A stretch of DNA of 64,000 bases. Origin: Meghimatium bilineatum (lineage: Eukaryota; Mollusca; Gastropoda; Stylommatophora; Philomycidae). Positions 22,579-64,000 of this stretch are shown here, piece after piece. The position numbers were made by a program, and so were the translations under genes. The notes beneath the pieces were generated by a model that had not been told where the DNA came from, did not search any database, and saw only the letters and a list, made by a program, of their open reading frames with translations. Numbering within the stretch: position 1 is the stretch's first letter; the number at the start of each line of letters is the position of its first letter. The stretch is from NCBI GenBank assembly GCA_034231615.1, contig CM067302.1:7441501-7505500 (forward strand), in the 5' to 3' direction.

Positions 22579-22651
22579 GAGTAATATGCCAGAATACACC
22601 GAGTTCTAACGTAGTACGCTAGAATACACCAAATTCGTGTGTCCAGACTGC
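22579..22651. repeat. 73-bp internal duplication at the left edge of duplication copy 1
   Basis: Same join, but F reads gctgcagtac, unlike lineage alpha. It lies just outside the shared 25-kb block: the corresponding place in copy 2 (near 47,816) has no 73-bp insert. Confidence 0.93.
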
Positions 22652-22799
22652 AATTTCTGGTGTAGTAAGCTGCAGTACACCCAATTTGTGAGTAATATGC
22701 CATAGAACACTGAGTTTTGACGTACTAAATAGCAAGAGACCTAATTTGTGTCTAATACGACAGTATTCTGACGTATTATGCTGCATTACAACGAAATGA

Positions 22800-25337
22800 T
22801 GTATAATAGGCCAGAATAGACTCAATTGAAGTGTAGTAAGCTTCAGAACAATGAATTTGTGAGTAATATGCCAGAATACACCGAGTTCTAACGTAGTACG
22901 CTAGAATACACTAAATTCGTGTGTCCACACTGCAATTTCTGGTGTAGTAAGCTGCAGTACACCCAATTTGTGATTAATATGCCATAGAACACTAAGTTTT
23001 GACGTACTAAACAGCAAGAGACCTAATTTGTGTATAATTCGCCAGTGTTCTGAGTTATTAAGCTGCAAAACAACGAAGTCATGTGTAACAGGCCAGAATA
23101 CACTCAATTCAAGTGTAGTAAGCTGCAGTACACCGAATTTGTGAGTAATATGACACAAAACACTGAGTTCTAACGTAGTACGCTAGAAAACACCAAATTC
23201 GTGTGTCCAGACTGCAATTTCTGGTGTAGTAAGCTGCAGTACACCCAATTTGTGAGTAATATGCCACAAAACACTGAGTTTTGACGTACTAAACAGCAAG
23301 AGACCTAATTTGTGTCTAATACGACAGTATTCTGACGTATTATGCTGCATTACAACGAAATGATGTATAATAGGCCAGAATAGACTCAATTGAATTGTAG
23401 TAAGCTTCAGAACAATGAATTTGTGAGTAATATGCCAGAATACACCGAGTTCTAACGTAGTACGCTAGAATACACTAAATTCGTGTGTCCAGACTGCAAT
23501 TTCTGGTGTAGTAAGCTGCAGTACACCCAATTTGTGAGTAATATGCCATAGAACACTGAGTTTTTACGTACTAAACAGCAAGAGACCTAATTTGTGTCTA
23601 ATACGACAGTATTCTGACGTATTATGCTGCATTACAACGAAATGATGTATAATAGGCCAGAATAGACTCAATTGAAGTGTAGTAAGCTTCAGAACAATGA
23701 ATTTGTGAGTAATATGCCAGAATACACCGAGTTCTAACGTAGTACGCTAGAATACACTAAATTCGTGTGTCCACACTGCAATTTCTGGTGTAGTAAGCTG
23801 CAGTACACCCAATTTGTGATTAATATGCCATAGAACACTAAGTTTTGACGTACTAAACAGCAAGAGACCTAATTTGTGTATAATTCGCCAGTGTTCTGAG
23901 TTATTAAGCTGCAAAACAACGAAGTCATGTGTAACAGGCCAGAATACACTCAATTCAAGTGTAGTAAGCTGCAGTACACCGAATTTGTGAGTAATATGCC
24001 ACAAAACACTGAGTTCTAACGTAGTACGCTAGAAAACACCAAATTCGTGTGTCCAGACTGCAATTTCTGGTGTAGTAAGCTGCAGTACACCCAATTTGTG
24101 AGTAATATGCCACAAAACACTGAGTTTTGACGTACTAAACAGCAAGAGACCTAATTTGTGTCTAATACGACAGTATTCTGACGTATTATGCTGCATTACA
24201 ACGAAATGATGTATAATAGGCCAGAATAGACTCAATTGAATTGTAGTAAGCTTCAGAACAATGAATTTGTGAGTAATATGCCAGAATACACCGAGTTCTA
24301 ACGTAGTACGCTAGAATACACTAAATTCGTGTGTCCAGACTGCAATTTCTGGTGTAGTAAGCTGCAGTACACCCAATTTGTGAGTAATATGCCATAGAAC
24401 ACTGAGTTTTGACGTACTAAACAGCAAGAGACCTAATTTGTGTCTAATACGACAGTATTCTGACGTATTATGCTGCATTACAACGAAATGATGTATAATA
24501 GGCCAGAATAGACTCAATTGAAGTGTAGTAAGCTTCAGAACAATGAATTTGTGAGTAATATGCCAGAATACACCGAGTTCTAACGTAGTACGCTAGAATA
24601 CACTAAATTCGTGTGTCCACACTGCAATTTCTGGTGTAGTAAGCTGCAGTACACCCAATTTGTGATTAATATGCCATAGAACACTAAGTTTTGACGTACT
24701 AAACAGCAAGAGACCTAATTTGTGTATAATTCGCCAGTGTTCTGAGTTATTAAGCTGCAAAACAACGAAGTCATGTGTAACAGGCCAGAATACACTCAAT
24801 TCAAGTGTAGTAAGCTGCAGTACACCGAATTTGTGAGTAATATGACACAAAACACTGAGTTCTAACGTAGTACGCTAGAAAACACCAAATTCGTGTGTCC
24901 AGACTGCAATTTCTGGTGTAGTAAGCTGCAGTACACCCAATTTGTGAGTAATATGCCACAAAACACTGAGTTTTGACGTACTAAACAGCAAGAGACCTAA
25001 TTTGTGTCTAATACGACAGTATTCTGACGTATTATGCTGCATTACAACGAAATGATGTATAATAGGCCAGAATAGACTCAATTGAATTGTAGTAAGCTTC
25101 AGAACAATGAATTTGTGAGTAATATGCCAGAATACACCGAGTTCTAACGTAGTACGCTAGAATACACTAAATTCGTGTGTCCAGACTGCAATTTCTGGTG
25201 TAGTAAGCTGCAGTACACCCAATTTGTGAGTAATATGCCATAGAACACTGAGTTTTGACGTACTAAACAGCAAGAGACCTAATTTGTGTCTAATACGACA
25301 GTATTCTGACGTATTATGCTGCATTACAACGAAATGA
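22800..25337. repeat. Three tandem copies of an 846-bp trimer (3 x 282)
   Basis: P-type units recur exactly every 846 bp, with D anchors at 22,901, 23,747, 24,593 and 25,439. They are separated by the same two unit types in the same order: one with an aaacaccaaatt D and gccacaaaac G, then a Q unit. Trimers are 22,800-23,645, 23,646-24,491 and 24,492-25,337. The pattern continues less regularly to about 29 kb. Confidence 0.85.
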
Positions 25338-25619
25338 TGTATAATAGGCCAGAATAGACTCAATTGAAGTGTAGTAAGCTTCAGAACAATGAATTTGTGA
25401 GTAATATCCCAGAATACACCGAGTTCTAACGTAGTACGCTAGAATACACTAAATTCGTGTGTCCACACTGCAATTTCTGGTGTAGTAAGCTGCACTACAC
25501 CCAATTTGTGATTAATATGCCATAGAACACTAAGTTTTGACGTACTAAACAGCAAGAGACCTAATTTGTGTATAATTCGCCAGTGTTCTGAGTTATTAAG
25601 CTGCAAAACAACGAAGTCA

Positions 25620-25790
25620 TGTGTAACAGGCCAGAATACACTCAATTCAAGTGTAGTAAGCTGCAGTACACCGAATTTGTGAGTAATATGCCACAAAACA
25701 CTGAGTTTTGACGTACTAAACAGCAAGAGACCTAATTTGTGTCTAATACGACAGTATTCTGACGTATTATGCTGCATTACAACGAAATGA
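25620..25790. repeat. 171-bp short unit, deletion type 2
   Basis: Same length as the type-1 units but a different join. It keeps acaccgaatttg from B, so the breakpoint lies further right, in the C/G homology between gccacaaaacactgag and tttt. It is followed by a unit starting tgtataaaagg. Confidence 0.9.
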
Positions 25791-25924
25791 TGTATAAAAG
25801 GCCAGAATAGACTCAATTGAAGTGTAGTAAGCTTCAGAACAATGAATTTGTGAGTAATATGCCAGAATACACCGAGTTCTAACGTAGTACGCTAGAATAC
25901 ACTAAATTCGTGTGTCCAGACTGC

Positions 25925-25997
25925 GAGTAATATGCCAGAATACACCGAGTTCTAACGTAGTACGCTAGAATACACCAAATTCGTGTGTCCAGGCTGC
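25925..25997. repeat. 73-bp internal duplication
   Basis: Same join, lineage beta, one unit downstream of a 171-bp unit. Confidence 0.93.
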
Positions 25998-27504
25998 AAT
26001 TTCTGGTGTAGTAAGCTGCAGTACACCCAATTTGTGAGTAATATGCCATAGAACACTGAGTTTTGACGTACTAAACAGCAAGAGACCTAATTTGTGTCTA
26101 ATACGACAGTATTCTGACGTTTTATGCTGCATTACAACGAAATGATGTATAATAGGCCAGAATACACTCAATTCAAGTGTAGTAAGCTGCAGTACACCCA
26201 ATTTGTGAGTAATATGCCAGAATACACCGAGTTCTAACGTAGTACGCTAGAATACAATAAATTCGTGTGTCCAGACTGCAATTTCTGGTGTAGTAAGCTG
26301 CAGTACACCAAATTTGTGAGTAATATGCCATAGAACACTGAGTTTTGACGTACTAAACAGCAAGAGACCTAATTTGTGTCTAATACGACAGTATTCTGAC
26401 GTATTATGCTGCATTACAACGAAATGATGTATAATAGGCCAGAATAGACTCAATTGAAGTGTAGTAAGCTTCAGAACAATGAATTTGTGAGTAATATGCC
26501 AGAATACACCGAGTTCTAACGTAGTACGCTAGAATACACTAAATTCGTGTGTCCACACTGCAATTTCTGGTGTAGTAAGCTGCAGTACACCCAATTTGTG
26601 ATTAATATGCCATAGAACACTAAGTTTTGACGTACTAAACAGCAAGAGACCTAATTTGTGTATAATTCGCCAGTGTTCTGAGTTATTAAGCTGCAAAACA
26701 ACGAAGTCATGTGTAACAGGCCAGAATACACTCAATTCAAGTGTAGTAAGCTGCAGTACACCGAATTTGTGAGTAATATGACACAAAACACTGAGTTCTA
26801 ACGTAGTACGCTAGAAAACACCAAATTCGTGTGTCCAGACTGCAATTTCTGGTGTAGTAAGCTGCAGTACACCCAATTTGTGAGTAATATGCCACAAAAC
26901 ACTGAGTTTTGACGTACTAAACAGCAAGAGACCTAATTTGTGTCTAATACGACAGTATTCTGACGTATTATGCTGCATTACAACGAAATGATGTATAATA
27001 GGCCAGAATAGACTCAATTGAATTGTAGTAAGCTTCAGAACAATGAATTTGTGAGTAATATGCCAGAATACACCGAGTTCTAACGTAGTACGCTAGAATA
27101 CACTAAATTCGTGTGTCCAGACTGCAATTTCTGGTGTAGTAAGCTGCAGTACACCCAATTTGTGAGTAATATGCCATAGAACACTGAGTTTTTACGTACT
27201 AAACAGCAAGAGACCTAATTTGTGTCTAATACGACAGTATTCTGACGTATTATGCTGCATTACAACGAAATGATGTATAATAGGCCAGAATAGACTCAAT
27301 TGAAGTGTAGTAAGCTTCAGAACAATGAATTTGTGAGTAATATGCCAGAATACACCGAGTTCTAACGTAGTACGCTAGAATACACTAAATTCGTGTGTCC
27401 ACACTGCAATTTCTGGTGTAGTAAGCTGCAGTACACCCAATTTGTGATTAATATGCCATAGAACACTAAGTTTTGACGTACTAAACAGCAAGAGACCTAA
27501 TTTG

Positions 27505-27648
27505 TGTATAATTCGCCAGTGTTCTGAGTTATTAAGCTGCAAAACAACGAAGTCATGTGTAACAGGCCAGAATACACTCAATTCAAGTGTAGTAAGCTGC
27601 AGTACACCGAATTTGTGAGTAATATGCCACAAAACACTGAGTTCTAAC
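27505..27648. repeat. P haplotype of the I-J-A-B-C block (example)
   Basis: Linked variants over 144 bp: I ttcgccagtgttctg, J attaagctgcaaaac and aagtca, A tgtgtaacagg and caattcaag, B gctgcagtacaccg, C gccacaaaac. The variants nearly always occur together. About a third of units between 22.9 and 47 kb carry the P-type I-J block. In a few cases (for example after 29,067 and 31,396) C reverts to gccagaatac, so the right edge of the block can be exchanged. Confidence 0.88.
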
Positions 27649-28683
27649 GTAGTACGCTAGAAAACACCAAATTCGTGTGTCCAGACTGCAATTTCTGGTG
27701 TAGTAAGCTGCAGTACACCCAATTTGTGAGTAATATGCCACAAAACACTGAGTTTTGACGTACTAAACAGCAAGAGACCTAATTTGTGTCTAATACGACA
27801 GTATTCTGACGTATTATGCTGCATTACAACGAAATGATGTATAATAGGCCAGAATAGACTCAATTGAATTGTAGTAAGCTTCAGAACAATGAATTTGTGA
27901 GTAATATGCCAGAATACACCGAGTTCTAACGTAGTACGCTAGAATACACTAAATTCGTGTGTCCAGACTGCAATTTCTGGTGTAGTAAGCTGCAGTACAC
28001 CCAATTTGTGAGTAATATGCCATAGAACACTGAGTTTTGACGTACTAAACAGCAAGAGACCTAATTTGTGTCTAATACGACAGTATTCTGACGTATTATG
28101 CTGCATTACAACGAAATGATGTATAATAGGCCAGAATAGACTCAATTGAAGTGTAGTAAGCTTCAGAACAATGAATTTGTGAGTAATATCCCAGAATACA
28201 CCGAGTTCTAACGTAGTACGCTAGAATACACTAAATTCGTGTGTCCACACTGCAATTTCTGGTGTAGTAAGCTGCAGTACACCCAATTTGTGATTAATAT
28301 GCCATAGAACACTAAGTTTTGACGTACTAAACAGCAAGAGACCTAATTTGTGTATAATTCGCCAGTGTTCTGAGTTATTAAGCTGCAAAACAACGAAGTC
28401 ATGTGTAACAGGCCAGAATACACTCAATTCAAGTGTAGTAAGCTGCAGTACACCGAATTTGTGAGTAATATGCCACAAAACACTGAGTTCTAACGTAGTA
28501 CGCTAGAAAACACCAAATTCGTGTGTCCAGACTGCAATTTCTGGTGTAGTAAGCTGCAGTACACCCAATTTGTGAGTAATATGCCACAAAACACTGAGTT
28601 TTGACGTACTAAACAGCAAGAGACCTAATTTGTGTCTAATACGACAGTATTCTGACGTTTTATGCTGCATTACAACGGAATGA

Positions 28684-28715
28684 TGTATAATAGGCCAGAA
28701 TACACTCAATTCAAG
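28684..28715. repeat. Subrepeat A (32 bp)
   Basis: Odd-class subrepeat with core taataggccagaatac. It resembles C and G, with gccagaata shared with C. In P-haplotype units it begins tgtgtaacagg instead of tgtataatagg. In X-type units its end reads actcacatctag. Confidence 0.85.
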
Positions 28716-28743
28716 TGTAGTACGCTGCAGTACACCCAATTTG
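28716..28743. repeat. Subrepeat B (28 bp)
   Basis: Even-class subrepeat. In most units it carries a HindIII site (gtaagcttcag). In P- and R-type units, including this one, it is instead F-like (gctgcagtacacc), consistent with exchange or conversion between B and F. Confidence 0.85.
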
Positions 28744-28776
28744 TGAGTAATATGCCAGAATACACCGAGTTCTAAC
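28744..28776. repeat. Subrepeat C (33 bp)
   Basis: Odd-class subrepeat, first of the 111-bp module C-F. It begins tgagtaatatgcc exactly as G does and ends gagttctaac where G ends gagttttgac. C and G are the homologous sites used in one of the two 111-bp losses. Confidence 0.88.
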
Positions 28777-28803
28777 GTAGTACGCTAGAATACACTAAAT
28801 TCG
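28777..28803. repeat. Subrepeat D (27 bp)
   Basis: Even-class subrepeat and counterpart of H. It contains gctagaatac, the anchor used to phase all units. Its variable end (cactaaatt, caccaaatt, caataaatt or caccatatt before cg) marks unit lineages. Confidence 0.88.
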
Positions 28804-28826
28804 TGTGTCCAGACTGCAATTTCTGG
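28804..28826. repeat. Subrepeat E (23 bp)
   Basis: Shortened odd-class subrepeat, about 10 bp shorter than A, C and G; counterpart of I. It holds the breakpoint of the 73-bp duplication, after cagactgc. Variants are ccagactgc, ccacactgc and ccaggctgc. Confidence 0.82.
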
Positions 28827-28854
28827 TGTAGTAAGCTGCAGTACACCCAATTTG
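28827..28854. repeat. Subrepeat F (28 bp)
   Basis: Even-class subrepeat with a PstI site (gctgcagtac), last member of module C-F. One lineage of 355-bp units has gcttcagtac here instead. Confidence 0.86.
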
Positions 28855-28887
28855 TGATTAATATGCCATAGAACACTGAGTTTTGAC
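28855..28887. repeat. Subrepeat G (33 bp)
   Basis: Odd-class subrepeat opening module G-J. Variants are tgagtaat or tgattaat at the start and ccatagaac or ccacaaaac in the middle. They travel with the unit haplotypes. Confidence 0.88.
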
Positions 28888-28914
28888 GTACTAAACAGCA
28901 AGAGACCTAATTTG
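28888..28914. repeat. Subrepeat H (27 bp)
   Basis: Even-class subrepeat (gtactaaacagcaagag), counterpart of D. A rarer gtaataaac variant marks one lineage near 17,568, 34,956, 36,932, 38,624, 41,438, 59,912, 61,888 and 63,579. Confidence 0.85.
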
Positions 28915-28938
28915 TGTCTAATACGACAGTATTCTGAC
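28915..28938. repeat. Subrepeat I (24 bp)
   Basis: Shortened odd-class subrepeat, counterpart of E. It is the most divergent subrepeat. It contains gtattctg, the exact reverse complement of cagaatac in C. In P units it reads tgtataattcgccag. Confidence 0.78.
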
Positions 28939-28965
28939 GTATTATGCTGCATTACAACGAAATGA
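28939..28965. repeat. Subrepeat J (27 bp)
   Basis: Even-class subrepeat, counterpart of F and last of the unit. Variants: gtattatgctgcatt (Q), gttttatgctgcatt (R) and gttattaagctgcaa (P). Confidence 0.82.
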
Positions 28966-30227
28966 TGTATAATAGGCCAGAATAGACTCAATTGAAGTGT
29001 AGTAAGCTTCAGAACAATGAATTTGTGAGTAATATGCCAGAATACACCGAGTTCTAACGTAGTACGCTAGAATACACTAAATTCGTGTGTCCACACTGCA
29101 ATTTCTGGTGTAGTAAGCTGCAGTACACCCAATTTGTGATTAATATGCCATAGAACACTAAGTTTTGACGTACTAAACAGCAAGAGACCTAATTTGTGTA
29201 TAATTCGCAAGTGTTCTGAGTTATTAAGCTGCAAAACAACGAAGTCATGTGTAACAGGCCAGAATACACTCAATTCAAGTGTAGTAAGCTGCAGTACACC
29301 GAATTTGTGAGTAATATGCCAGAATACACCGAGTTCTAACGTAGTACGCTAGAATACAATAAATTCGTGTGTCCAGACTGCAATTTCTGGTGTAGTAAGC
29401 TGCAGTACACCCAATTTGTGAGTAATATGCCATAGAACACTGAGTTTTGACGTACTAAACAGCAAGAGACCTAATTTGTGTCTAATACGACAGTATTCTG
29501 ACGTATTATGCTGCATTACAACGAAATGATGTATAATAGGCCAGAATAGACTCAATTGAAGTGTAGTAAGCTTCAGAACAATGAATTTGTGAGTAATATG
29601 CCAGAATACACCGAGTTCTAACGTAGTACGCTAGAATACACTAAATTCGTGTGTCCACACTGCAATTTCTGGTGTAGTAAGCTGCAGTACACCCAATTTG
29701 TGATTAATATGCCATAGAACACTAAGTTTTGACGTACTAAACAGCAAGAGACCTAATTTGTGTATAATTCGCCAGTGTTCTGAGTTATTAAGCTGCAAAA
29801 CAACGAAGACATGTGTAACAGGCCAGAATACACTCAATTCAAGTGTAGTAAGCTGCAGTACACCGAATTTGTGAGTAATATGCCACAAAACACTGAGTTC
29901 TAACGTAGTACGCTAGAAAACACCAAATACGTGTGTCCAGACTGCAATTTCTGGTGTAGTAAGCTGCAGTACACCCAATTTGTGAGTAATATGCCACAAA
30001 ACACTGAGTTTTGACGTACTAAACAGCAAGAGACCTAATTTGTGTCTAATACGACAGTATTCTGACGTATTATGCTGCATTACAACGAAATGATGTATAA
30101 TAGGCCAGAATAGACACAATTGAAGTGTAGTAAGCTTCAGAACAATGAATTTGTGAGTAATATGCCAGAATACACCGAGTTCTAACGTAGTACGCTAGAA
30201 TACACTAAATTCGTGTGTCCAGACTGC

Positions 30228-30300
30228 GAGTAATATGCCAGAATACACCGAGTTCTAACGTAGTACGCTAGAATACACCATATTCGTGTGTCCAGACTGC
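30228..30300. repeat. 73-bp internal duplication
   Basis: Same join. The second D has the private form caccatattcg, a sublineage of alpha shared by the copies at 31,711, 47,534, 55,465 and 56,948. Confidence 0.93.
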
Positions 30301-31637
30301 AATTTCTGGTGTAGTAAGCTTCAGTACACCCAATTTGTGAGTAATATGCCATAGAACACTGAGTTTTGACGTACTAAACAGCAAGAGACCTAATTTGTGT
30401 CTAATACGACAGTATTCTGACGTATTATGCTGCATTACAACGAAATGATGTATAATAGGCCAGAATAGACACAATTGAAGTGTAGTAAGCTTCAGAACAA
30501 TGAATTTGTGAGTAATATGCCAGAATACACAGAGTTCTAACGTAGTACGCTAGAATACACTAAATTCGTGTGTCCAGACTGCAATTTCTGGTGTAGTAAG
30601 CTGCAGTACACCCAATTTGTGATTAATATGCCATAGAACACTGAGTTTTGACGTACTAAACAGCAAGAGACCTAATTTGTGTCTAATACGACAGTATTCT
30701 GACGTATTATGCTGCATTACAACGAAATGATGTATAATAGGCCAGAATAGACTCAATTGAAGTGTAGTAAGCTTCAGAACAATGAATTTGTGAGTAATAT
30801 GCCAGAATACACCGAGTTCTAACGTAGTACGCTAGAATACACTAAATTCGTGTGTCCACACTGCAATTTCTGGTGTAGTAAGCTGCAGTACACCCAATTT
30901 GTGATTAATATGCCATAGAACACTGAGTTTTGACGTACTAAACAGCAAGAGACCTAATTTGTGTCTAATACGACAGTATTCTGACGTTTTATGCTGCATT
31001 ACAACGAAATGATGTATAATAGGCCATAATACACTCAATTCAAGTGTAGTAAGCTGCAGTACACCCAATTTGTGAGTAATATGCCAGAATACACCGAGTT
31101 CTAACGTAGTACGCTAGAATACAATAAATTCGTGTGTCCAGACTGCAATTTCTGGTGTAGTAAGCTGCAGTACACCCAATTTGTGAGTAATAGGCCATAG
31201 AACACTGAGTTTTGACGTACTAAACAGCAAGAGACCTAATTTGTGTCTAATACGACAGTATTCTGACGTATTATGCTGCATTACAACGAAATGATGTATA
31301 ATAGGCCAGAATAGACTCAATTGAAGTGTAGTAAGCTTCAGAACAATGAATTTGTGAGTAATATGCCAGAATACACCGAGTTCTAACGTAGTACGCTAGA
31401 ATACGCTAAATTCGTGTGTCCACACTGCAATTTCTGGTGTAGTAAGCTGCAGTACACCCAATTTGTGATTAATATGCCATAGAACACTAAGTTTTGACGT
31501 ACTAAACAGCAAGAGACCTAATTTGTGTATAATTCGCCAGTGTTCTGAGTTATTAAGCTGCAAAACAACGAAGTCATGTGTAACAGGCCAGAATACACTC
31601 AATTCAAGTGTAGTAAGCTGCAGTACACCGAATTTGT
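30228..31637. repeat. Local tandem duplication, first copy (period 1,483 bp)
   Basis: Five units (355 + 4 x 282 = 1,483 bp) repeat immediately at 31,711-33,120. Shared marks include caccatattcg, ggccataatac, taataggccatag and gaatacgct. The copies differ in the second A-B-C: this one has agacacaattg and acacagag, the other has the X pair. Confidence 0.87.
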
Positions 31638-31710
31638 GAGTAATATGCCAGAATACACCGAGTTCTAACGTAGTACGCTAGAATACACTAAATTCGTGTG
31701 TCCAGACTGC

Positions 31711-31783
31711 GAGTAATATGCCAGAATACACCGAGTTCTAACGTAGTACGCTAGAATACACCATATTCGTGTGTCCAGACTGC
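31711..31783. repeat. 73-bp internal duplication
   Basis: Same join and caccatattcg mark. Part of the 1,483-bp local duplication with 30,228. Confidence 0.93.
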
Positions 31784-31931
31784 AATTTCTGGTGTAGTAA
31801 GCTTCAGTACACCCAATTTGTGAGTAATATGCCATAGAACACTGAGTTTTGACGTACTAAACAGCAAGAGACCTAATTTGTGTCTAATACGACAGTATTC
31901 TGACGTATTATGCTGCATTACAACGAAATGA

Positions 31932-31991
31932 TGTATAATAGGCCAGAATAGACTCACATCTAGTGTAGTTATCTTCAGAACAATGAATTTG
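31932..31991. repeat. X variant of the A-B pair (example)
   Basis: A ends actcacatctag and B reads gtagttatcttcag, destroying the HindIII site. The same pair starts near 922, 2330, 6403, 8238, 9928, 12497, 14187, 18278, 20680, 31932 and 57169, eleven copies. At 2894 a hybrid has the X form of A followed by a normal B, which points to exchange inside the 60-bp pair. Confidence 0.87.
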
Positions 31992-32596
31992 TGAGTAATA
32001 TGCCAGAATACACCGAGTTCTAACGTAGTACGCTAGAATACACTAAATTCGTGTGTCCAGACTGCAATTTCTGGTGTAGTAAGCTGCAGTACACCCAATT
32101 TGTGATTAATATGCCATAGAACACTGAGTTTTGACGTACTAAACAGCAAGAGACCTAATTTGTGTCTAATACGACAGTATTCTGACGTATTATGCTGCAT
32201 TACAACGAAATGATGTATAATAGGCCAGAATAGACTCAATTGAAGTGTAGTAAGCTTCAGAACAATGAATTTGTGAGTAATATGCCAGAATACACCGAGT
32301 TCTAACGTAGTACGCTAGAATACACTAAATTCGTGTGTCCACACTGCAATTTCTGGTGTAGTAAGCTGCAGTACACCCAATTTGTGATTAATATGCCATA
32401 GAACACTGAGTTTTGACGTACTAAACAGCAAGAGACCTAATTTGTGTCTAATACGACAGTATTCTGACGTTTTATGCTGCATTACAACGAAATGATGTAT
32501 AATAGGCCATAATACACTCAATTCAAGTGTAGTAAGCTGCAGTACACCCAATTTGTGAGTAATATGCCAGAATACACCGAGTTCTAACGTAGTACG

Positions 32597-35278
32597 CTAG
32601 AATACAATAAATTCGTGTGTCCAGACTGCAATTTCTGGTGTAGTAAGCTGCAGTACACCCAATTTGTGAGTAATAGGCCATAGAACACTGAGTTTTGACG
32701 TACTAAACAGCAAGAGACCTAATTTGTGTCTAATACGACAGTATTCTGACGTATTATGCTGCATTACAACGAAATGATGTATAATAGGCCAGAATAGACT
32801 CAATTGAAGTGTAGTAAGCTTCAGAACAATGAATTTGTGAGTAATATGCCAGAATACACCGAGTTCTAACGTAGTACGCTAGAATACGCTAAATTCGTGT
32901 GTCCACACTGCAATTTCTGGTGTAGTAAGCTGCAGTACACCCAATTTGTGATTAATATGCCATAGAACACTAAGTTTTGACGTACTAAACAGCAAGAGAC
33001 CTAATTTGTGTATAATTCGCCAGTGTTCTGAGTTATTAAGCTGCAAAACAACGAAGTCATGTGTAACAGGCCAGAATACACTCAATTCAAGTGTAGTAAG
33101 CTGCAGTACACCGAATTTGTGAGTAATATGCCACAAAACACTGAGTTCTAACGTAGTACGCTAGAAAACACCAAATTCGTGTGTCCAGACTGCAATTTCT
33201 GGTGTAGTAAGCTGCAGTACACCCAATTTGTGAGTAATATGCCACAAAACACTGAGTTTTGACGTACTAAACAGCAAGAGACCTAATTTGTGTCTAATAC
33301 GACAGTATTCTGACGTATTATGCTGCATTACAACGAAATGATGTATAATAGGCCAGAATACACTCAATTCAAGTGTAGTACGCTGCAGTACACCCAATTT
33401 GTGAGTAATATGCCAGAATACACCGAGTTCTAACGTAGTACGCTAGAATACACTAAATTCGTGTGTCCAGACTGCAATTTCTGGTGTAGTAAGCTGCAGT
33501 ACACCCAATTTGTGATTAATATGCCATAGAACACTGAGTTTTGACGTACTAAACAGCAAGAGACCTAATTTGTGTCTAATACGACAGTTTTCTGACGTAT
33601 TATGCTGCATTACAACGAAATGATGTATAATAGGCCAGAATAGACTCAATTGAAGTGTAGTAAGCTTCAGAACAATGAATTTGTGAGTAATATGCCAGAA
33701 TACACCGAGTTCTAACGTAGTACGCTAGAATACACTAAATTCGTGTGTCCACACTGCAATTTCTGGTGTAGTAAGCTGCAGTACACCCAATTTGTGATTA
33801 ATATGCCATAGAACACTAAGTTTTGACGTACTAAACAGCAAGAGACCTAATTTGTGTATAATTCGCAAGTGTTCTGAGTTATTAAGCTGCAAAACAACGA
33901 AGTCATGTGTAACAGGCCAGAATACACTCAATTCAAGTGTAGTAAGCTGCAGTACACCGAATTTGTGAGTAATATGCCAGAATACACCGAGTTCTAACGT
34001 AGTACGCTAGAATACAATAAATTCGTGTGTCCAGACTGCAATTTCTGGTGTAGTAAGCTGCAGTACACCCAATTTGTGAGTAATATGCCATAGAACACTG
34101 AGTTTTGACGTACTAAACAGCAAGAGACCTAATTTGTGTCTAATACGACAGTATTCTGACGTATTATGCTGCATTACAACGAAATGATGTATAATAGGCC
34201 AGAATAGACTCAATTGAAGTGTAGTAAGCTTCAGAACAATGAATTTGTGAGTAATATGCCAGAATACACCGAGTTCTAACGTAGTACGCTAGAATACACT
34301 AAATTCGTGTGTCCACACTGCAATTTCTGGTGTAGTAAGCTGCAGTACACCCAATTTGTGATTAATATGCCATAGAACACTAAGTTTTGACGTACTAAAC
34401 AGCAAGAGACCTAATTTGTGTATAATTCGCCAGTGTTCTGAGTTATTAAGCTGCAAAACAACGAAGACATGTGTAACAGGCCAGAATACACTCAATTCAA
34501 GTGTAGTAAGCTGCAGTACACCGAATTTGTGAGTAATATGCCACAAAACACTGAGTTCTAACGTAGTACGCTAGAAAACACCAAATTCGTGTGTCCAGAC
34601 TGCAATTTCTGGTGTAGTAAGCTGCAGTACACCCAATTTGTGAGTAATATGCCACAAAACACTGAGTTTTGACGTACTAAACAGCAAGAGATCTAATTTG
34701 TGTCTAATACGACAGTATTCTGACGTATTATGCTGCATTACAACGAAATGATGTATAATAGGCCAGAATAGACTCAATTGAATTGTAGTAAGCTTCAGAA
34801 CAATGAATTTGTGAGTAATATGCCAGAATACACCGAGTTCTAACGTAGTACGCTAGAATACACTAAATTCGTGTGTCCAGACTGCAATTTCTGGTGTAGT
34901 AAGCTGCAGTACACCCAATTTGTGATTAATATGCCATAGAACACTAAGTTTTGACGTAATAAACAGCAAGAGACCTAATTTGTGTATAATTCGCCAGTGT
35001 TCTGAGTTATTAAGCTGCAAAACAACGAAGTCATGTGTAACAGACCAGAATACACTCAATTCAAGTGTATTAAGCTGCAGTACACCGAATTTGTGAGTAA
35101 TATGCCACAAAACACTGAGTTCTAACGTAGTACGCTAGAAAACACCAAATACGTGTGTCCAGACTGCAATTTCTGGTGTAGTAAGCTGCAGTACACCCAA
35201 TTTGTGAGTAATATGCCACAAAACACTGAGTTTTGACGTACTAAACAGCAAGAGACCTAATTTGTGTCTAATACGACA
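32597..35278. repeat. 2.7-kb block duplicated at 39,081-41,760 (offset 6,484)
   Basis: Unit order matches, including gaatacgct, taataggccatag, ttcgcaagtg and aagacatgtg. The unit at 34,571 (agatcta) and that at 41,055 (attctaacg) differ, so at least one of the two blocks has been patched from elsewhere. Confidence 0.82.
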
Positions 35279-41760: not shown

Positions 41761-41797
41761 GTATTCTGACGTATTATGCTGCATTACAACGAAATGA

Positions 41798-50856: not shown

Positions 50857-51027
50857 TGTGTAACAGGCCAGAATACACTCAATTCAAGTGTAGTAAGCTG
50901 CAGTACACCGAATTTGTGAGTAATATGCCACAAAACACTGAGTTTTGACGTACTAAACAGCAAGAGACCTAATTTGTGTCTAATACGACAGTATTCTGAC
51001 GTATTATGCTGCATTACAACGAAATGA
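50857..51027. repeat. 171-bp short unit, deletion type 2
   Basis: Counterpart of the 25,620 unit at +25,237 bp, with the same join and the same ataaaagg neighbour. Confidence 0.9.
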
Positions 51028-51161
51028 TGTATAAAAGGCCAGAATAGACTCAATTGAAGTGTAGTAAGCTTCAGAACAATGAATTTGTGAGTAATATGCC
51101 AGAATACACCGAGTTCTAACGTAGTACGCTAGAATACACTAAATTCGTGTGTCCAGACTGC

Positions 51162-51234
51162 GAGTAATATGCCAGAATACACCGAGTTCTAACGTAGTAC
51201 GCTAGAATACACCAAATTCGTGTGTCCAGGCTGC
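51162..51234. repeat. 73-bp internal duplication
   Basis: Same join, lineage beta. Counterpart of 25,925 at +25,237 bp. Confidence 0.93.
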
Positions 51235-54200
51235 AATTTCTGGTGTAGTAAGCTGCAGTACACCCAATTTGTGAGTAATATGCCATAGAACACTGAGTTT
51301 TGACGTACTAAACAGCAAGAGACCTAATTTGTGTCTAATACGACAGTATTCTGACGTTTTATGCTGCATTACAACGAAATGATGTATAATAGGCCAGAAT
51401 ACACTCAATTCAAGTGTAGTAAGCTGCAGTACACCCAATTTGTGAGTAATATGCCAGAATACACCGAGTTCTAACGTAGTACGCTAGAATACAATAAATT
51501 CGTGTGTCCAGACTGCAATTTCTGGTGTAGTAAGCTGCAGTACACCAAATTTGTGAGTAATATGCCATAGAACACTGAGTTTTGACGTACTAAACAGCAA
51601 GAGACCTAATTTGTGTCTAATACGACAGTATTCTGACGTATTATGCTGCATTACAACGAAATGATGTATAATAGGCCAGAATAGACTCAATTGAAGTGTA
51701 GTAAGCTTCAGAACAATGAATTTGTGAGTAATATGCCAGAATACACCGAGTTCTAACGTAGTACGCTAGAATACACTAAATTCGTGTGTCCACACTGCAA
51801 TTTCTGGTGTAGTAAGCTGCAGTACACCCAATTTGTGATTAATATGCCATAGAACACTAAGTTTTGACGTACTAAACAGCAAGAGACCTAATTTGTGTAT
51901 AATTCGCCAGTGTTCTGAGTTATTAAGCTGCAAAACAACGAAGTCATGTGTAACAGGCCAGAATACACTCAATTCAAGTGTAGTAAGCTGCAGTACACCG
52001 AATTTGTGAGTAATATGACACAAAACACTGAGTTCTAACGTAGTACGCTAGAAAACACCAAATTCGTGTGTCCAGACTGCAATTTCTGGTGTAGTAAGCT
52101 GCAGTACACCCAATTTGTGAGTAATATGCCACAAAACACTGAGTTTTGACGTACTAAACAGCAAGAGACCTAATTTGTGTCTAATACGACAGTATTCTGA
52201 CGTATTATGCTGCATTACAACGAAATGATGTATAATAGGCCAGAATAGACTCAATTGAATTGTAGTAAGCTTCAGAACAATGAATTTGTGAGTAATATGC
52301 CAGAATACACCGAGTTCTAACGTAGTACGCTAGAATACACTAAATTCGTGTGTCCAGACTGCAATTTCTGGTGTAGTAAGCTGCAGTACACCCAATTTGT
52401 GAGTAATATGCCATAGAACACTGAGTTTTTACGTACTAAACAGCAAGAGACCTAATTTGTGTCTAATACGACAGTATTCTGACGTATTATGCTGCATTAC
52501 AACGAAATGATGTATAATAGGCCAGAATAGACTCAATTGAAGTGTAGTAAGCTTCAGAACAATGAATTTGTGAGTAATATGCCAGAATACACCGAGTTCT
52601 AACGTAGTACGCTAGAATACACTAAATTCGTGTGTCCACACTGCAATTTCTGGTGTAGTAAGCTGCAGTACACCCAATTTGTGATTAATATGCCATAGAA
52701 CACTAAGTTTTGACGTACTAAACAGCAAGAGACCTAATTTGTGTATAATTCGCCAGTGTTCTGAGTTATTAAGCTGCAAAACAACGAAGTCATGTGTAAC
52801 AGGCCAGAATACACTCAATTCAAGTGTAGTAAGCTGCAGTACACCGAATTTGTGAGTAATATGCCACAAAACACTGAGTTCTAACGTAGTACGCTAGAAA
52901 ACACCAAATTCGTGTGTCCAGACTGCAATTTCTGGTGTAGTAAGCTGCAGTACACCCAATTTGTGAGTAATATGCCACAAAACACTGAGTTTTGACGTAC
53001 TAAACAGCAAGAGACCTAATTTGTGTCTAATACGACAGTATTCTGACGTATTATGCTGCATTACAACGAAATGATGTATAATAGGCCAGAATAGACTCAA
53101 TTGAATTGTAGTAAGCTTCAGAACAATGAATTTGTGAGTAATATGCCAGAATACACCGAGTTCTAACGTAGTACGCTAGAATACACTAAATTCGTGTGTC
53201 CAGACTGCAATTTCTGGTGTAGTAAGCTGCAGTACACCCAATTTGTGAGTAATATGCCATAGAACACTGAGTTTTGACGTACTAAACAGCAAGAGACCTA
53301 ATTTGTGTCTAATACGACAGTATTCTGACGTATTATGCTGCATTACAACGAAATGATGTATAATAGGCCAGAATAGACTCAATTGAAGTGTAGTAAGCTT
53401 CAGAACAATGAATTTGTGAGTAATATCCCAGAATACACCGAGTTCTAACGTAGTACGCTAGAATACACTAAATTCGTGTGTCCACACTGCAATTTCTGGT
53501 GTAGTAAGCTGCAGTACACCCAATTTGTGATTAATATGCCATAGAACACTAAGTTTTGACGTACTAAACAGCAAGAGACCTAATTTGTGTATAATTCGCC
53601 AGTGTTCTGAGTTATTAAGCTGCAAAACAACGAAGTCATGTGTAACAGGCCAGAATACACTCAATTCAAGTGTAGTAAGCTGCAGTACACCGAATTTGTG
53701 AGTAATATGCCACAAAACACTGAGTTCTAACGTAGTACGCTAGAAAACACCAAATTCGTGTGTCCAGACTGCAATTTCTGGTGTAGTAAGCTGCAGTACA
53801 CCCAATTTGTGAGTAATATGCCACAAAACACTGAGTTTTGACGTACTAAACAGCAAGAGACCTAATTTGTGTCTAATACGACAGTATTCTGACGTTTTAT
53901 GCTGCATTACAACGGAATGATGTATAATAGGCCAGAATACACTCAATTCAAGTGTAGTACGCTGCAGTACACCCAATTTGTGAGTAATATGCCAGAATAC
54001 ACCGAGTTCTAACGTAGTACGCTAGAATACACTAAATTCGTGTGTCCAGACTGCAATTTCTGGTGTAGTAAGCTGCAGTACACCCAATTTGTGATTAATA
54101 TGCCATAGAACACTGAGTTTTGACGTACTAAACAGCAAGAGACCTAATTTGTGTCTAATACGACAGTATTCTGACGTATTATGCTGCATTACAACGAAAT

Positions 54201-55464
54201 GATGTATAATAGGCCAGAATAGACTCAATTGAAGTGTAGTAAGCTTCAGAACAATGAATTTGTGAGTAATATGCCAGAATACACCGAGTTCTAACGTAGT
54301 ACGCTAGAATACACTAAATTCGTGTGTCCACACTGCAATTTCTGGTGTAGTAAGCTGCAGTACACCCAATTTGTGATTAATATGCCATAGAACACTAAGT
54401 TTTGACGTACTAAACAGCAAGAGACCTAATTTGTGTATAATTCGCAAGTGTTCTGAGTTATTAAGCTGCAAAACAACGAAGTCATGTGTAACAGGCCAGA
54501 ATACACTCAATTCAAGTGTAGTAAGCTGCAGTACACCGAATTTGTGAGTAATATGCCAGAATACACCGAGTTCTAACGTAGTACGCTAGAATACAATAAA
54601 TTCGTGTGTCCAGACTGCAATTTCTGGTGTAGTAAGCTGCAGTACACCCAATTTGTGAGTAATATGCCATAGAACACTGAGTTTTGACGTACTAAACAGC
54701 AAGAGACCTAATTTGTGTCTAATACGACAGTATTCTGACGTATTATGCTGCATTACAACGAAATGATGTATAATAGGCCAGAATAGACTCAATTGAAGTG
54801 TAGTAAGCTTCAGAACAATGAATTTGTGAGTAATATGCCAGAATACACCGAGTTCTAACGTAGTACGCTAGAATACACTAAATTCGTGTGTCCACACTGC
54901 AATTTCTGGTGTAGTAAGCTGCAGTACACCCAATTTGTGATTAATATGCCATAGAACACTAAGTTTTGACGTACTAAACAGCAAGAGACCTAATTTGTGT
55001 ATAATTCGCCAGTGTTCTGAGTTATTAAGCTGCAAAACAACGAAGACATGTGTAACAGGCCAGAATACACTCAATTCAAGTGTAGTAAGCTGCAGTACAC
55101 CGAATTTGTGAGTAATATGCCACAAAACACTGAGTTCTAACGTAGTACGCTAGAAAACACCAAATACGTGTGTCCAGACTGCAATTTCTGGTGTAGTAAG
55201 CTGCAGTACACCCAATTTGTGAGTAATATGCCACAAAACACTGAGTTTTGACGTACTAAACAGCAAGAGACCTAATTTGTGTCTAATACGACAGTATTCT
55301 GACGTATTATGCTGCATTACAACGAAATGATGTATAATAGGCCAGAATAGACACAATTGAAGTGTAGTAAGCTTCAGAACAATGAATTTGTGAGTAATAT
55401 GCCAGAATACACCGAGTTCTAACGTAGTACGCTAGAATACACTAAATTCGTGTGTCCAGACTGC

Positions 55465-55537
55465 GAGTAATATGCCAGAATACACCGAGTTCTAACGTAG
55501 TACGCTAGAATACACCATATTCGTGTGTCCAGACTGC
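55465..55537. repeat. 73-bp internal duplication
   Basis: Same join and caccatattcg mark. Counterpart of 30,228 at +25,237 bp. Confidence 0.93.
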
Positions 55538-56947
55538 AATTTCTGGTGTAGTAAGCTTCAGTACACCCAATTTGTGAGTAATATGCCATAGAACACTGAG
55601 TTTTGACGTACTAAACAGCAAGAGACCTAATTTGTGTCTAATACGACAGTATTCTGACGTATTATGCTGCATTACAACGAAATGATGTATAATAGGCCAG
55701 AATAGACACAATTGAAGTGTAGTAAGCTTCAGAACAATGAATTTGTGAGTAATATGCCAGAATACACAGAGTTCTAACGTAGTACGCTAGAATACACTAA
55801 ATTCGTGTGTCCAGACTGCAATTTCTGGTGTAGTAAGCTGCAGTACACCCAATTTGTGATTAATATGCCATAGAACACTGAGTTTTGACGTACTAAACAG
55901 CAAGAGACCTAATTTGTGTCTAATACGACAGTATTCTGACGTATTATGCTGCATTACAACGAAATGATGTATAATAGGCCAGAATAGACTCAATTGAAGT
56001 GTAGTAAGCTTCAGAACAATGAATTTGTGAGTAATATGCCAGAATACACCGAGTTCTAACGTAGTACGCTAGAATACACTAAATTCGTGTGTCCACACTG
56101 CAATTTCTGGTGTAGTAAGCTGCAGTACACCCAATTTGTGATTAATATGCCATAGAACACTGAGTTTTGACGTACTAAACAGCAAGAGACCTAATTTGTG
56201 TCTAATACGACAGTATTCTGACGTTTTATGCTGCATTACAACGAAATGATGTATAATAGGCCATAATACACTCAATTCAAGTGTAGTAAGCTGCAGTACA
56301 CCCAATTTGTGAGTAATATGCCAGAATACACCGAGTTCTAACGTAGTACGCTAGAATACAATAAATTCGTGTGTCCAGACTGCAATTTCTGGTGTAGTAA
56401 GCTGCAGTACACCCAATTTGTGAGTAATAGGCCATAGAACACTGAGTTTTGACGTACTAAACAGCAAGAGACCTAATTTGTGTCTAATACGACAGTATTC
56501 TGACGTATTATGCTGCATTACAACGAAATGATGTATAATAGGCCAGAATAGACTCAATTGAAGTGTAGTAAGCTTCAGAACAATGAATTTGTGAGTAATA
56601 TGCCAGAATACACCGAGTTCTAACGTAGTACGCTAGAATACGCTAAATTCGTGTGTCCACACTGCAATTTCTGGTGTAGTAAGCTGCAGTACACCCAATT
56701 TGTGATTAATATGCCATAGAACACTAAGTTTTGACGTACTAAACAGCAAGAGACCTAATTTGTGTATAATTCGCCAGTGTTCTGAGTTATTAAGCTGCAA
56801 AACAACGAAGTCATGTGTAACAGGCCAGAATACACTCAATTCAAGTGTAGTAAGCTGCAGTACACCGAATTTGTGAGTAATATGCCAGAATACACCGAGT
56901 TCTAACGTAGTACGCTAGAATACACTAAATTCGTGTGTCCAGACTGC

Positions 56948-57020
56948 GAGTAATATGCCAGAATACACCGAGTTCTAACGTAGTACGCTAGAATACACCA
57001 TATTCGTGTGTCCAGACTGC
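56948..57020. repeat. 73-bp internal duplication
   Basis: Same join and caccatattcg mark. Counterpart of 31,711 at +25,237 bp, just upstream of the 282-bp deletion. Confidence 0.93.
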
Positions 57021-60000
57021 AATTTCTGGTGTAGTAAGCTTCAGTACACCCAATTTGTGAGTAATATGCCATAGAACACTGAGTTTTGACGTACTAAACA
57101 GCAAGAGACCTAATTTGTGTCTAATACGACAGTATTCTGACGTATTATGCTGCATTACAACGAAATGATGTATAATAGGCCAGAATAGACTCACATCTAG
57201 TGTAGTTATCTTCAGAACAATGAATTTGTGAGTAATATGCCAGAATACACCGAGTTCTAACGTAGTACGCTAGAATACACTAAATTCGTGTGTCCACACT
57301 GCAATTTCTGGTGTAGTAAGCTGCAGTACACCCAATTTGTGATTAATATGCCATAGAACACTGAGTTTTGACGTACTAAACAGCAAGAGACCTAATTTGT
57401 GTCTAATACGACAGTATTCTGACGTTTTATGCTGCATTACAACGAAATGATGTATAATAGGCCATAATACACTCAATTCAAGTGTAGTAAGCTGCAGTAC
57501 ACCCAATTTGTGAGTAATATGCCAGAATACACCGAGTTCTAACGTAGTACGCTAGAATACAATAAATTCGTGTGTCCAGACTGCAATTTCTGGTGTAGTA
57601 AGCTGCAGTACACCCAATTTGTGAGTAATAGGCCATAGAACACTGAGTTTTGACGTACTAAACAGCAAGAGACCTAATTTGTGTCTAATACGACAGTATT
57701 CTGACGTATTATGCTGCATTACAACGAAATGATGTATAATAGGCCAGAATAGACTCAATTGAAGTGTAGTAAGCTTCAGAACAATGAATTTGTGAGTAAT
57801 ATGCCAGAATACACCGAGTTCTAACGTAGTACGCTAGAATACGCTAAATTCGTGTGTCCACACTGCAATTTCTGGTGTAGTAAGCTGCAGTACACCCAAT
57901 TTGTGATTAATATGCCATAGAACACTAAGTTTTGACGTACTAAACAGCAAGAGACCTAATTTGTGTATAATTCGCCAGTGTTCTGAGTTATTAAGCTGCA
58001 AAACAACGAAGTCATGTGTAACAGGCCAGAATACACTCAATTCAAGTGTAGTAAGCTGCAGTACACCGAATTTGTGAGTAATATGCCACAAAACACTGAG
58101 TTCTAACGTAGTACGCTAGAAAACACCAAATTCGTGTGTCCAGACTGCAATTTCTGGTGTAGTAAGCTGCAGTACACCCAATTTGTGAGTAATATGCCAC
58201 AAAACACTGAGTTTTGACGTACTAAACAGCAAGAGACCTAATTTGTGTCTAATACGACAGTATTCTGACGTATTATGCTGCATTACAACGAAATGATGTA
58301 TAATAGGCCAGAATACACTCAATTCAAGTGTAGTACGCTGCAGTACACCCAATTTGTGAGTAATATGCCAGAATACACCGAGTTCTAACGTAGTACGCTA
58401 GAATACACTAAATTCGTGTGTCCAGACTGCAATTTCTGGTGTAGTAAGCTGCAGTACACCCAATTTGTGATTAATATGCCATAGAACACTGAGTTTTGAC
58501 GTACTAAACAGCAAGAGACCTAATTTGTGTCTAATACGACAGTTTTCTGACGTATTATGCTGCATTACAACGAAATGATGTATAATAGGCCAGAATAGAC
58601 TCAATTGAAGTGTAGTAAGCTTCAGAACAATGAATTTGTGAGTAATATGCCAGAATACACCGAGTTCTAACGTAGTACGCTAGAATACACTAAATTCGTG
58701 TGTCCACACTGCAATTTCTGGTGTAGTAAGCTGCAGTACACCCAATTTGTGATTAATATGCCATAGAACACTAAGTTTTGACGTACTAAACAGCAAGAGA
58801 CCTAATTTGTGTATAATTCGCAAGTGTTCTGAGTTATTAAGCTGCAAAACAACGAAGTCATGTGTAACAGGCCAGAATACACTCAATTCAAGTGTAGTAA
58901 GCTGCAGTACACCGAATTTGTGAGTAATATGCCAGAATACACCGAGTTCTAACGTAGTACGCTAGAATACAATAAATTCGTGTGTCCAGACTGCAATTTC
59001 TGGTGTAGTAAGCTGCAGTACACCCAATTTGTGAGTAATATGCCATAGAACACTGAGTTTTGACGTACTAAACAGCAAGAGACCTAATTTGTGTCTAATA
59101 CGACAGTATTCTGACGTATTATGCTGCATTACAACGAAATGATGTATAATAGGCCAGAATAGACTCAATTGAAGTGTAGTAAGCTTCAGAACAATGAATT
59201 TGTGAGTAATATGCCAGAATACACCGAGTTCTAACGTAGTACGCTAGAATACACTAAATTCGTGTGTCCACACTGCAATTTCTGGTGTAGTAAGCTGCAG
59301 TACACCCAATTTGTGATTAATATGCCATAGAACACTAAGTTTTGACGTACTAAACAGCAAGAGACCTAATTTGTGTATAATTCGCCAGTGTTCTGAGTTA
59401 TTAAGCTGCAAAACAACGAAGACATGTGTAACAGGCCAGAATACACTCAATTCAAGTGTAGTAAGCTGCAGTACACCGAATTTGTGAGTAATATGCCACA
59501 AAACACTGAGTTCTAACGTAGTACGCTAGAAAACACCAAATTCGTGTGTCCAGACTGCAATTTCTGGTGTAGTAAGCTGCAGTACACCCAATTTGTGAGT
59601 AATATGCCACAAAACACTGAGTTTTGACGTACTAAACAGCAAGAGATCTAATTTGTGTCTAATACGACAGTATTCTGACGTATTATGCTGCATTACAACG
59701 AAATGATGTATAATAGGCCAGAATAGACTCAATTGAATTGTAGTAAGCTTCAGAACAATGAATTTGTGAGTAATATGCCAGAATACACCGAGTTCTAACG
59801 TAGTACGCTAGAATACACTAAATTCGTGTGTCCAGACTGCAATTTCTGGTGTAGTAAGCTGCAGTACACCCAATTTGTGATTAATATGCCATAGAACACT
59901 AAGTTTTGACGTAATAAACAGCAAGAGACCTAATTTGTGTATAATTCGCCAGTGTTCTGAGTTATTAAGCTGCAAAACAACGAAGTCATGTGTAACAGAC

Positions 60001-63000
60001 CAGAATACACTCAATTCAAGTGTATTAAGCTGCAGTACACCGAATTTGTGAGTAATATGCCACAAAACACTGAGTTCTAACGTAGTACGCTAGAAAACAC
60101 CAAATACGTGTGTCCAGACTGCAATTTCTGGTGTAGTAAGCTGCAGTACACCCAATTTGTGAGTAATATGCCACAAAACACTGAGTTTTGACGTACTAAA
60201 CAGCAAGAGACCTAATTTGTGTCTAATACGACAGTATTCTGACGTATTATGCTGCATTACAACGAAATGATGTATAATAGGCCAGAATAGACACAATTGA
60301 AGTGTAGTAAGCTTCAGAACAATGAATTTGTGAGTAATATGCCAGAATACACCGAGTTCTAACGTAGTACGCTAGAATACACTAAATTCGTGTGTCCAGA
60401 CTGCAATTTCTGGTGTAGTAAGCTGCAGTACACCCAATTTGTGATTAATATGCCATAGAACACTGAGTTTTGACGTACTAAACAGCAAGAGACCTAATTT
60501 GTGTCTAATACGACAGTATTCTGACGTTTTATGCTGCATTACAACGAAATGATGTATAATAGGCCATAATACACTCAATTCAAGTGTAGTAAGCTGCAGT
60601 ACACCCAATTTGTGAGTAATATGCCAGAATACACCGAGTTCTAACGTAGTACGCTAGAATACAATAAATTCGTGTGTCCAGACTGCAATTTCTGGTGTAG
60701 TAAGCTGCAGTACACCCAATTTGTGATTAATATGCCATAGAACACTGAGTTTTGACGTACTAAACAGCAAGAGACCTAATTTGTGTCTAATACGACAGTA
60801 TTCTGACGTATTATGCTGCATTACAACGAAGTCATGTATAATAGGCCAGAATAGACTCAATTGAAGTGTAGTAAGCTTCAGAACAATGAATTTGTGAGTA
60901 ATATGCCAGAATACACCGAGTTCTAACGTAGTACGCTAGAATACACTAAATTCGTGTGTCCACACTGCAATTTCTGGTGTAGTAAGCTGCAGTACACCCA
61001 ATTTGTGATTAATATGCCATAGAACACTAAGTTTTGACGTACTAAACAGCAAGAGACCTAATTTGTGTCTAATACGACAGTATTCTGACGTATTATGCTG
61101 CATTACAACGAAATGATGTATAATAGGCCAGAATAGACTCAATTGAAGTGTAGTAAGCTTCAGAACAATGAATTTGTGAGTAATATGCCAGAATACACCG
61201 AGTTCTAACGTAGTACGCTAGAATACACTAAATTCGTGTGTCCACACTGCAATTTCTGGTGTAGTAAGCTGCAGTACACCCAATTTGTGATTAATATGCC
61301 ATAGAACACTAAGTTTTGACGTACTAAACAGCAAGAGACCTAATTTGTGTATAATTCGCCAGTGTTCTGAGTTATTAAGCTGCAAAACAACGAAGACATG
61401 TGTAACAGGCCAGAATACACTCAATTCAAGTGTAGTAAGCTGCAGTACACCGAATTTGTGAGTAATATGCCACAAAACACTGAGTTCTAACGTAGTACGC
61501 TAGAAAACACCAAATTCGTGTGTCCAGACTGCAATTTCTGGTGTAGTAAGCTGCAGTACACCCAATTTGTGAGTAATATGCCACAAAACACTGAGTTTTG
61601 ACGTACTAAACAGCAAGAGACCTAATTTGTGTCTAATACGACAGTATTCTGACGTATTATGCTGCATTACAACGAAATGATGTATAATAGGCCAGAATAG
61701 ACTCAATTGAATTGTAGTAAGCTTCAGAACAATGAATTTGTGAGTAATATGCCAGAATACACCGAGTTCTAACGTAGTACGCTAGAATACACTAAATTCG
61801 TGTGTCCAGACTGCAATTTCTGGTGTAGTAAGCTGCAGTACACCCAATTTGTGATTAATATGCCATAGAACACTGAGTTTTGACGTAATAAACAGCAAGA
61901 GACCTAATTTGTGTATAATTCGCCAGTGTTCTGAGTTATTAAGCTGCAAAACAACGAAGTCATGTGTAACAGACCAGAATACACTCAATTCAAGTGTAGT
62001 AAGCTGCAGTACACCGAATTTGTGAGTAATATGCCACAAAACACTGAGTTCTAACGTAGTACGCTAGAAAACACCAAATACGTGTGTCCAGACTGCAATT
62101 TCTGGTGTAGTAAGCTGCAGTACACCCAATTTGTGATTAATATGCCATAGAACACTAAGTTTTGACGTACTAAACAGCAAGAGACCTAATTTGTGTATAA
62201 TTCGCCAGTGTTCTGAGTTATTAAGCTGCAAAACAACGAAGTCATGTGTAACAGGCCAGAATACACTCAATTCAAGTGTAGTAAGCTGCAGTACACCGAA
62301 TTTGTGAGTAATATGCCACAAAACACTGAGTTCTAACGTAGTACGCTAGAAAACACCAAATTCGTGTGTCCAGACTGCAATTTCTGGTGTAGTAAGCTGC
62401 AGTACACCCAATTTGTGAGTAATATGCCACAAAACACTGAGTTTTGACGTACTAAACAGCAAGAGACCTAATTTGTGTCTAATACGACAGTATTCTGACG
62501 TATTATGCTGCATTACAACGAAATGATGTATAATAGGCCAGAATACACTCAATTCAAGTGTAGTACGCTGCAGTACACCCAATTTGTGAGTAATATGCCA
62601 GAATACACCGAGTTCTAACGTAGTACGCTAGAATACACTAAATTCGTGTGTCCAGACTGCAATTTCTGGTGTAGTAAGCTGCAGTACACCCAATTTGTGA
62701 TTAATATGCCATAGAACACTGAGTTTTGACGTACTAAACAGCAAGAGACCTAATTTGTGTCTAATACGACAGTATTCTGACGTATTATGCTGCATTACAA
62801 CGAAATGATGTATAATAGGCCAGAATAGACTCAATTGAAGTGTAGTAAGCTTCAGAACAATGAATTTGTGAGTAATATGCCAGAATACACCGAGTTCTAA
62901 CGTAGTACGCTAGAATACACTAAATTCGTGTGTCCACACTGCAATTTCTGGTGTAGTAAGCTGCAGTACACCCAATTTGTGATTAATATGCCATAGAACA

Positions 63001-64000
63001 CTAAGTTTTGACGTACTAAACAGCAAGAGACCTAATTTGTGTATAATTCGCCAGTGTTCTGAGTTATTAAGCTGCAAAACAACGAAGACATGTGTAACAG
63101 GCCAGAATACACTCAATTCAAGTGTAGTAAGCTGCAGTACACCGAATTTGTGAGTAATATGCCACAAAACACTGAGTTCTAACGTAGTACGCGAGAAAAC
63201 ACCAAATTCGTGTGTCCAGACTGCAATTTCTGGTGTAGTAAGCTGCAGTACACCCAATTTGTGAGTAATATGCCACAAAACACTGAGTTTTGACGTACTA
63301 AACAGCAAGAGACCTAATTTGTGTCTAATACGACAGTATTCTAACGTATTATGCTGCATTACAACGAAATGATGTATAATAGGCCAGAATAGACTCAATT
63401 GAATTGTAGTAAGCTTCAGAACAATGAATTTGTGAGTAATATGCCAGAATACACCGAGTTCTAACGTAGTACGCTAGAATACACTAAATTCGTGTGTCCA
63501 GACTGCAATTTCTGGTGTAGTAAGCTGCAGTACACCCAATTTGTGATTAATATGCCATAGAACACTAAGTTTTGACGTAATAAACAGCAAGAGACCTAAT
63601 TTGTGTATAATTCGCCAGTGTTCTGAGTTATTAAGCTGCAAAACAACGAAGTCATGTGTAAGACCAGAATACACTCAATTCAAGTGTAGTAAGCTGCAGT
63701 ACACCGAATTTGTGAGTAATATGCCACAAAACACTGAGTTCTAACGTAGTACGCTAGAAAACACCACATACGTGTGTCCAGACTGCAATTTCTGGTGTAG
63801 TAAGCTGTAGTACACCCAATTTGTGATTAATATGCCATAGAACACTGAGTTTTGACGTACTAAACAGCAAGAGACCTAATTTGTGTCTAATACGACAGTA
63901 TTCTGACGTTTTATGCTGCATTACAACGAAATGATGTATAATAGGCCATAATACACTCAATTCAAGTGTAGTAAGCTGCAGTACACCCAATTTGTGAGTA

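Follow-up and report, generated by a model that had tools for sequence, protein, structure and literature searches.

The satellite array and its units

The window, by which we mean the whole stretch of 64,000 nucleotides that was analysed, is satellite DNA throughout, with a unit of 282 bp, and all of the features described here are given on its forward strand. Cutting the sequence at a marker from the unit end yielded 236 boundaries, superseding a coarser cut with 140, and delimited 235 units in an array (145–63,794) that fills the window. By this cutting, 196 of the 235 units are exactly 282 bp long, the other lengths being 73 bp (20 units), 280 bp (8), 453 bp (5), 279 bp (2), 281 bp (2), 562 bp (1) and 731 bp (1), and 88 distinct unit types are present. 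The consensus unit is itself composed of ten subrepeats, eight of 30 bp plus one of 21 bp and one of 20 bp, and the GC content is flat along the window (0.377–0.383 in 4-kb windows). The 73-bp partial units recur, making up 20 of the 235 cuts (for example at 709, 4,050, 22,587, 30,236 and 47,542); one of them lies directly to the left of position 22,631 and another one unit ahead of the junction at 47,868–47,928.

The head-to-tail repetition of the unit over kilobases, in non-coding sequence, is that of a satellite DNA array. In fact, a coding repeat was ruled out, as the 64 kb hold 12 stop-to-stop frames of at least 120 aa, the longest of 187 aa, and no Rfam family reached its gathering score in the window. 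Sets of distinct units recur together, as in a higher-order repeat, and identical units follow each other in the same order in runs of 34 and 23 between the two copies of a large block (copies 1 and 2) and in runs of 9, 7 and 6 between the blocks A and A', both pairs being described below. Centromeric satellites are marked by CENP-A/CENH3 chromatin at the primary constriction; the core of the CENP-B box is absent from both strands of the window, which has no bearing on centromeric status.

Relatives of the satellite were sought in several collections. Plasmid or phage relatives were rejected, with zero blastn matches for one 2,001-base query per collection, and a 19-mer from the unit gave no exact matches in viral_contigs and none in genome_contigs. 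A 20-mer from the unit matched one contig of a Bacteroides MAG through a single 23-bp match; no array accompanies the match and, as a 20-mer should find about 0.47 exact matches at random in the collection bearing that MAG, it was taken as a chance event. In the literature, three pieces of 16–17 bases from the unit and their reverse complements were not found in the papers searched, and a search for satellites with this unit length brought up a single paper, on the centromeres of Chlorella. The satellite is probably from a eukaryote.

The diversity of the units is not uniform along the window. The left part is more varied, with 57 distinct units among 84 at 1–22,586 versus 40 among 91 at 22,660–47,867, and the right part of the array seems to have turned over more recently than the left. 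In the latter interval, among the lags of 1–12 units tested, similarity between 282-bp units peaks at a distance of three (846 bp), where they diverge by 4.4%, versus 7.7% for neighbours. Two further close pairs, 16,001–18,000 with 39,880–41,872 (99.35% identity) and 39,001–41,000 with 32,517–34,516 (99.85% identity), are signs of other recent copying inside the array.

Two copies of a large block and their junction

From position 22,631 a block of the array is found a second time. The part of the first copy that is seen twice (copy 1, 22,631–39,045, 16,415 bp) corresponds to copy 2 (47,868–64,000, 16,133 bp), which is ended by the edge of the window, and the sequence between them (39,046–47,867), occurring once in the window, would be, judging from the offset, the remainder of a 25,237-bp period, whose second copy, if any, falls past the window end. 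In ungapped comparison, 22,631–32,059 is identical to 47,868–57,296 over 9,429 bp at an offset of 25,237, and 32,255–39,045 is identical to 57,210–64,000 over 6,791 bp at an offset of 24,955, the latter run being stopped only by the window end. A single gap of 282 bp joins both runs with zero mismatches, so that 16,133 aligned columns contain no substitution (95% upper bound 1.9e-4). Among the 60 longest of the 419 exact repeats of at least 400 bp, the next-longest in the window measures 2,432 bp.

The variants present in the block lead to the same picture. Of the 1,806 distinct 31-mers of copy 1, 328 are found at exactly two sites of the window, which are in every case separated by the duplication offset; they form 11 variant clusters, two of which overlap. 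A search of the whole window found no 31-mer confined to copy 1 and none confined to copy 2. Single-copy 31-mer clusters number 29 at 1–22,630 (1.28 per kb) and four at 39,046–47,867, and at these densities the lack of private variants in 16.1 kb has, by a rough Poisson yardstick, a P of about 1e-9 and 7e-4, respectively.

These results confirm the observation of the initial annotation, which had noticed the recurrence at +25,237 bp and later at +24,955, the sharing of private substitutions and the absence of base differences between the copies; the base-level comparison of the two copies, which it had proposed as a check, found them identical at every aligned base. It had also placed the crossover between 47,867 and 47,929, an interval that is exact, the zone being 47,868–47,928. 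Its start of about 22,650 is 19 bp late. Furthermore, its figure of 25,237 bp is correct as an offset but does not hold as a length that can be seen: 16.1 kb of copy 2, approximately 64% of a full copy, lies in the window, in which 1.64 periods are visible, and we infer from the offset that the whole 25,237 bp were duplicated in tandem. A tandem segmental duplication inside a satellite array would consist of a pair of adjacent, near-identical blocks that have the same orientation and a single novel junction; the blocks, their orientation and the junction are visible here, and the far end of copy 2 lies beyond the window.

The junction can be read to the base. The 61 bp of the crossover zone (47,868–47,928), defined by the overlap of two exact runs and bounded by mismatches at 47,867 and 47,929, are identical to both 22,631–22,691 and 30,562–30,622. 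Before the junction, 45,497–47,928 is identical to 28,191–30,622, and after it the sequence from 47,868 is identical to that from 22,631 onward. The flanking units start at 47,615 (type #67) and 47,897 (type #57), an order that occurs once among the 235 units, and the 282-bp phase is kept across the junction. Comparison of the two parental contexts gives 4 mismatches in 415 bp, made of 52 bp upstream, the 61-bp zone and 302 bp downstream: upstream there are 2 mismatches in 52 bases, after which the register is lost, and downstream 2 mismatches in 302 bases. The exchange is thus located within approximately 415 bp carrying 4 mismatches, and the shortness of the upstream homology is a mild argument against a simple crossover within long homology.

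The only difference between the copies is one unit that copy 2 lacks. The 282 bp absent from copy 2 fall in the region 31,973–32,341 of copy 1 and admit 88 equivalent placements (after 31,972–32,059). In copy 2, the unit at 57,029–57,310 (type #87) is a hybrid, whose left part is that of type #3 (at 31,792) and whose right part is that of type #35 (at 32,074); position 269 alone sets it apart from #3, and eight positions, none of them beyond 181, set it apart from #35. Among the 235 units, #3 occurs 7 times, #35 12 times and #87 once. On the sequence, the most satisfactory reading is that two neighbouring units underwent an exchange that produced the hybrid, and that the absence of one unit is a derived loss, which would have taken place either in copy 2 itself or in its template.

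A second pair of blocks and the order of events

A further layer of duplication overlaps the first. Block A (23,669–30,622) shares exact runs, at offsets of 18,152 and 17,306, with block A' (41,821–47,928), and appears to be the source from which A' was copied; the two differ by 2 substitutions in 6,108 bp and by an 846-bp gap, equal to three units. The exact runs flanking this gap overlap by 468 bp (45,497–45,964). The difference is of the same whole-unit kind as that between copies 1 and 2, and may reflect either a loss in A' or a gain in A.

At 43,879, A' carries a private T. At 25,495, A has a C that is shared with 50,732 in copy 2 only, while A' has the common G at the corresponding 43,647. 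Since this base is private to both big copies and not found in A', the event at the 18-kb offset would have come first, and since the sequence to the left of the 47,868–47,928 junction is that of A', this block should be older than that junction. The order of events rests on these two points, 25,495C and the contribution of A' to the left side of the junction, which suggest that the 18-kb-offset event preceded the one at 25,237; this order would be less secure if A' had undergone gene conversion at 25,495/43,647. Counts alone date A' only weakly (2/6,108 versus 0/16,133, Fisher P = 0.075). The event at the 18-kb offset is only partly explained, because the window contains no closely matching source for the left flank of A' (edge at 41,820), the best ungapped match being 457 of 500 bases.

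Mechanisms, alternatives and known systems

The likely origin of copy 2 is a recent tandem copying of the block starting at 22,631, through out-of-register recombination of repeat units that are in phase. The junction that keeps the phase, the whole-unit gaps and the identity at the breakpoint are consistent with out-of-register exchange or break-induced replication; unequal sister-chromatid exchange and break-induced replication would fit the sequence equally, and published work describes both for satellites (PMC8997354, PMC11034957). Some human expansions have been argued to need more than simple unequal crossover (PMC11062924). A duplication at offset 18,152 would have generated A' from A, followed by the substitution 25,495C in A; the event at offset 25,237 would then have copied A together with this substitution, the new junction joining the end of A' to 22,631–22,691 through the 61 identical bases, and copy 2, or its template, would finally have lost one unit by exchange between neighbours, keeping the hybrid. 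Both the strand events and the correctness of the assembly are what we infer here. The interpretation put forward in the initial annotation, an exchange on a large scale or a replication-based event of very recent date, fits all of the observations, but not as a lone event, as at least two recent overlapping duplications (offsets 18,152 and 25,237) are present.

Such satellite arrays are hard to assemble, and the explanation that most deserves to be weighed against recent tandem copying is an artefact, a possibility raised in the initial annotation as well, in which a graph loop, or the joining of alleles or overlapping contigs, placed one real block twice. Zero substitutions in 16.1 kb is just the expectation for a block used twice, and the 282-bp difference could be allelic or a difference in unit count. 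However, the derived hybrid unit separates the copies, so at least two versions of the block were sequenced; 61 bases of identity, or 415 bp if 4 mismatches are allowed, would be short for a long-read overlap join, and over 16 kb some substitutions would normally be expected between the alleles of an outbred diploid. We regard an artefact as rather improbable, though to be kept in mind.

The other alternatives concern the history of real DNA. The block may be one period of a longer 25-kb higher-order repeat array that continues rightward and arose by repeated amplification, as would agree with the 1.64 periods in view and with a window that stops inside copy 2, but no earlier in-register copy precedes 22,631, to the left of which identity drops at once, the best partners of 21,001–23,000 reaching 94–97%; this makes such an array very unlikely. 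Even less credible is a long-tract gene conversion that homogenised two older, diverged blocks: gene conversion is known to homogenise repeats (PMC8997354), but in this case it would require an uninterrupted tract of more than 16 kb between blocks that already shared their unit order. As a more speculative extension of recent tandem copying, which we hold to be quite unlikely, the array could be in the middle of a burst, in which duplications that overlap, with offsets near 18 and 25 kb, followed each other in quick succession, each with whole units gained or lost, and the roughly 25-kb block would be turning into a new giant higher-order repeat that extends past the window.

If the assembly is right, the locus is a cleanly readable case of satellite growth, in which the two steps can be put in order, the junctions are exact and a hybrid records the loss of one unit; it also shows that identity can extend over blocks longer than 16 kb in such arrays, a point of relevance to their assembly. 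Furthermore, the base-level junctions could be used for comparing unequal exchange with break-induced replication.

This duplication is an already known type of event, of which the centromere CEN10 of maize offers the closest description (PMC4806543). There, adjacent segmental duplications occur, one of them of 22.7 kb, the higher-order repeats of CentC derive from adjacent duplication, and one satellite monomer was lost leaving a recombinant monomer (PMC4806543); the locus studied here resembles it in the size of its adjacent duplication, in higher-order repeats that arose in this way and in a one-monomer loss with a recombinant monomer. Unlike it, the 22.7-kb maize block is described as made of retrotransposons, with 5-nt microhomology and an age of about 121,000 years (PMC4806543), whereas the block reported here is pure satellite, with 61 bp of homology at the junction and no substitution between the copies. 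In pea CEN6, too, large portions of arrays are reported to be duplicated inside the satellite array; the evidence there consists of dot-plot patterns in FabTR arrays (PMC10027222). Finally, the human arrays are likewise described as undergoing recent bursts of duplication inside the array and many insertions and deletions of whole units, but those cases concern more than 1 Mb of new HORs on known chromosomes (PMC11062924), in contrast with the one or two steps of approximately 18–25 kb found here.
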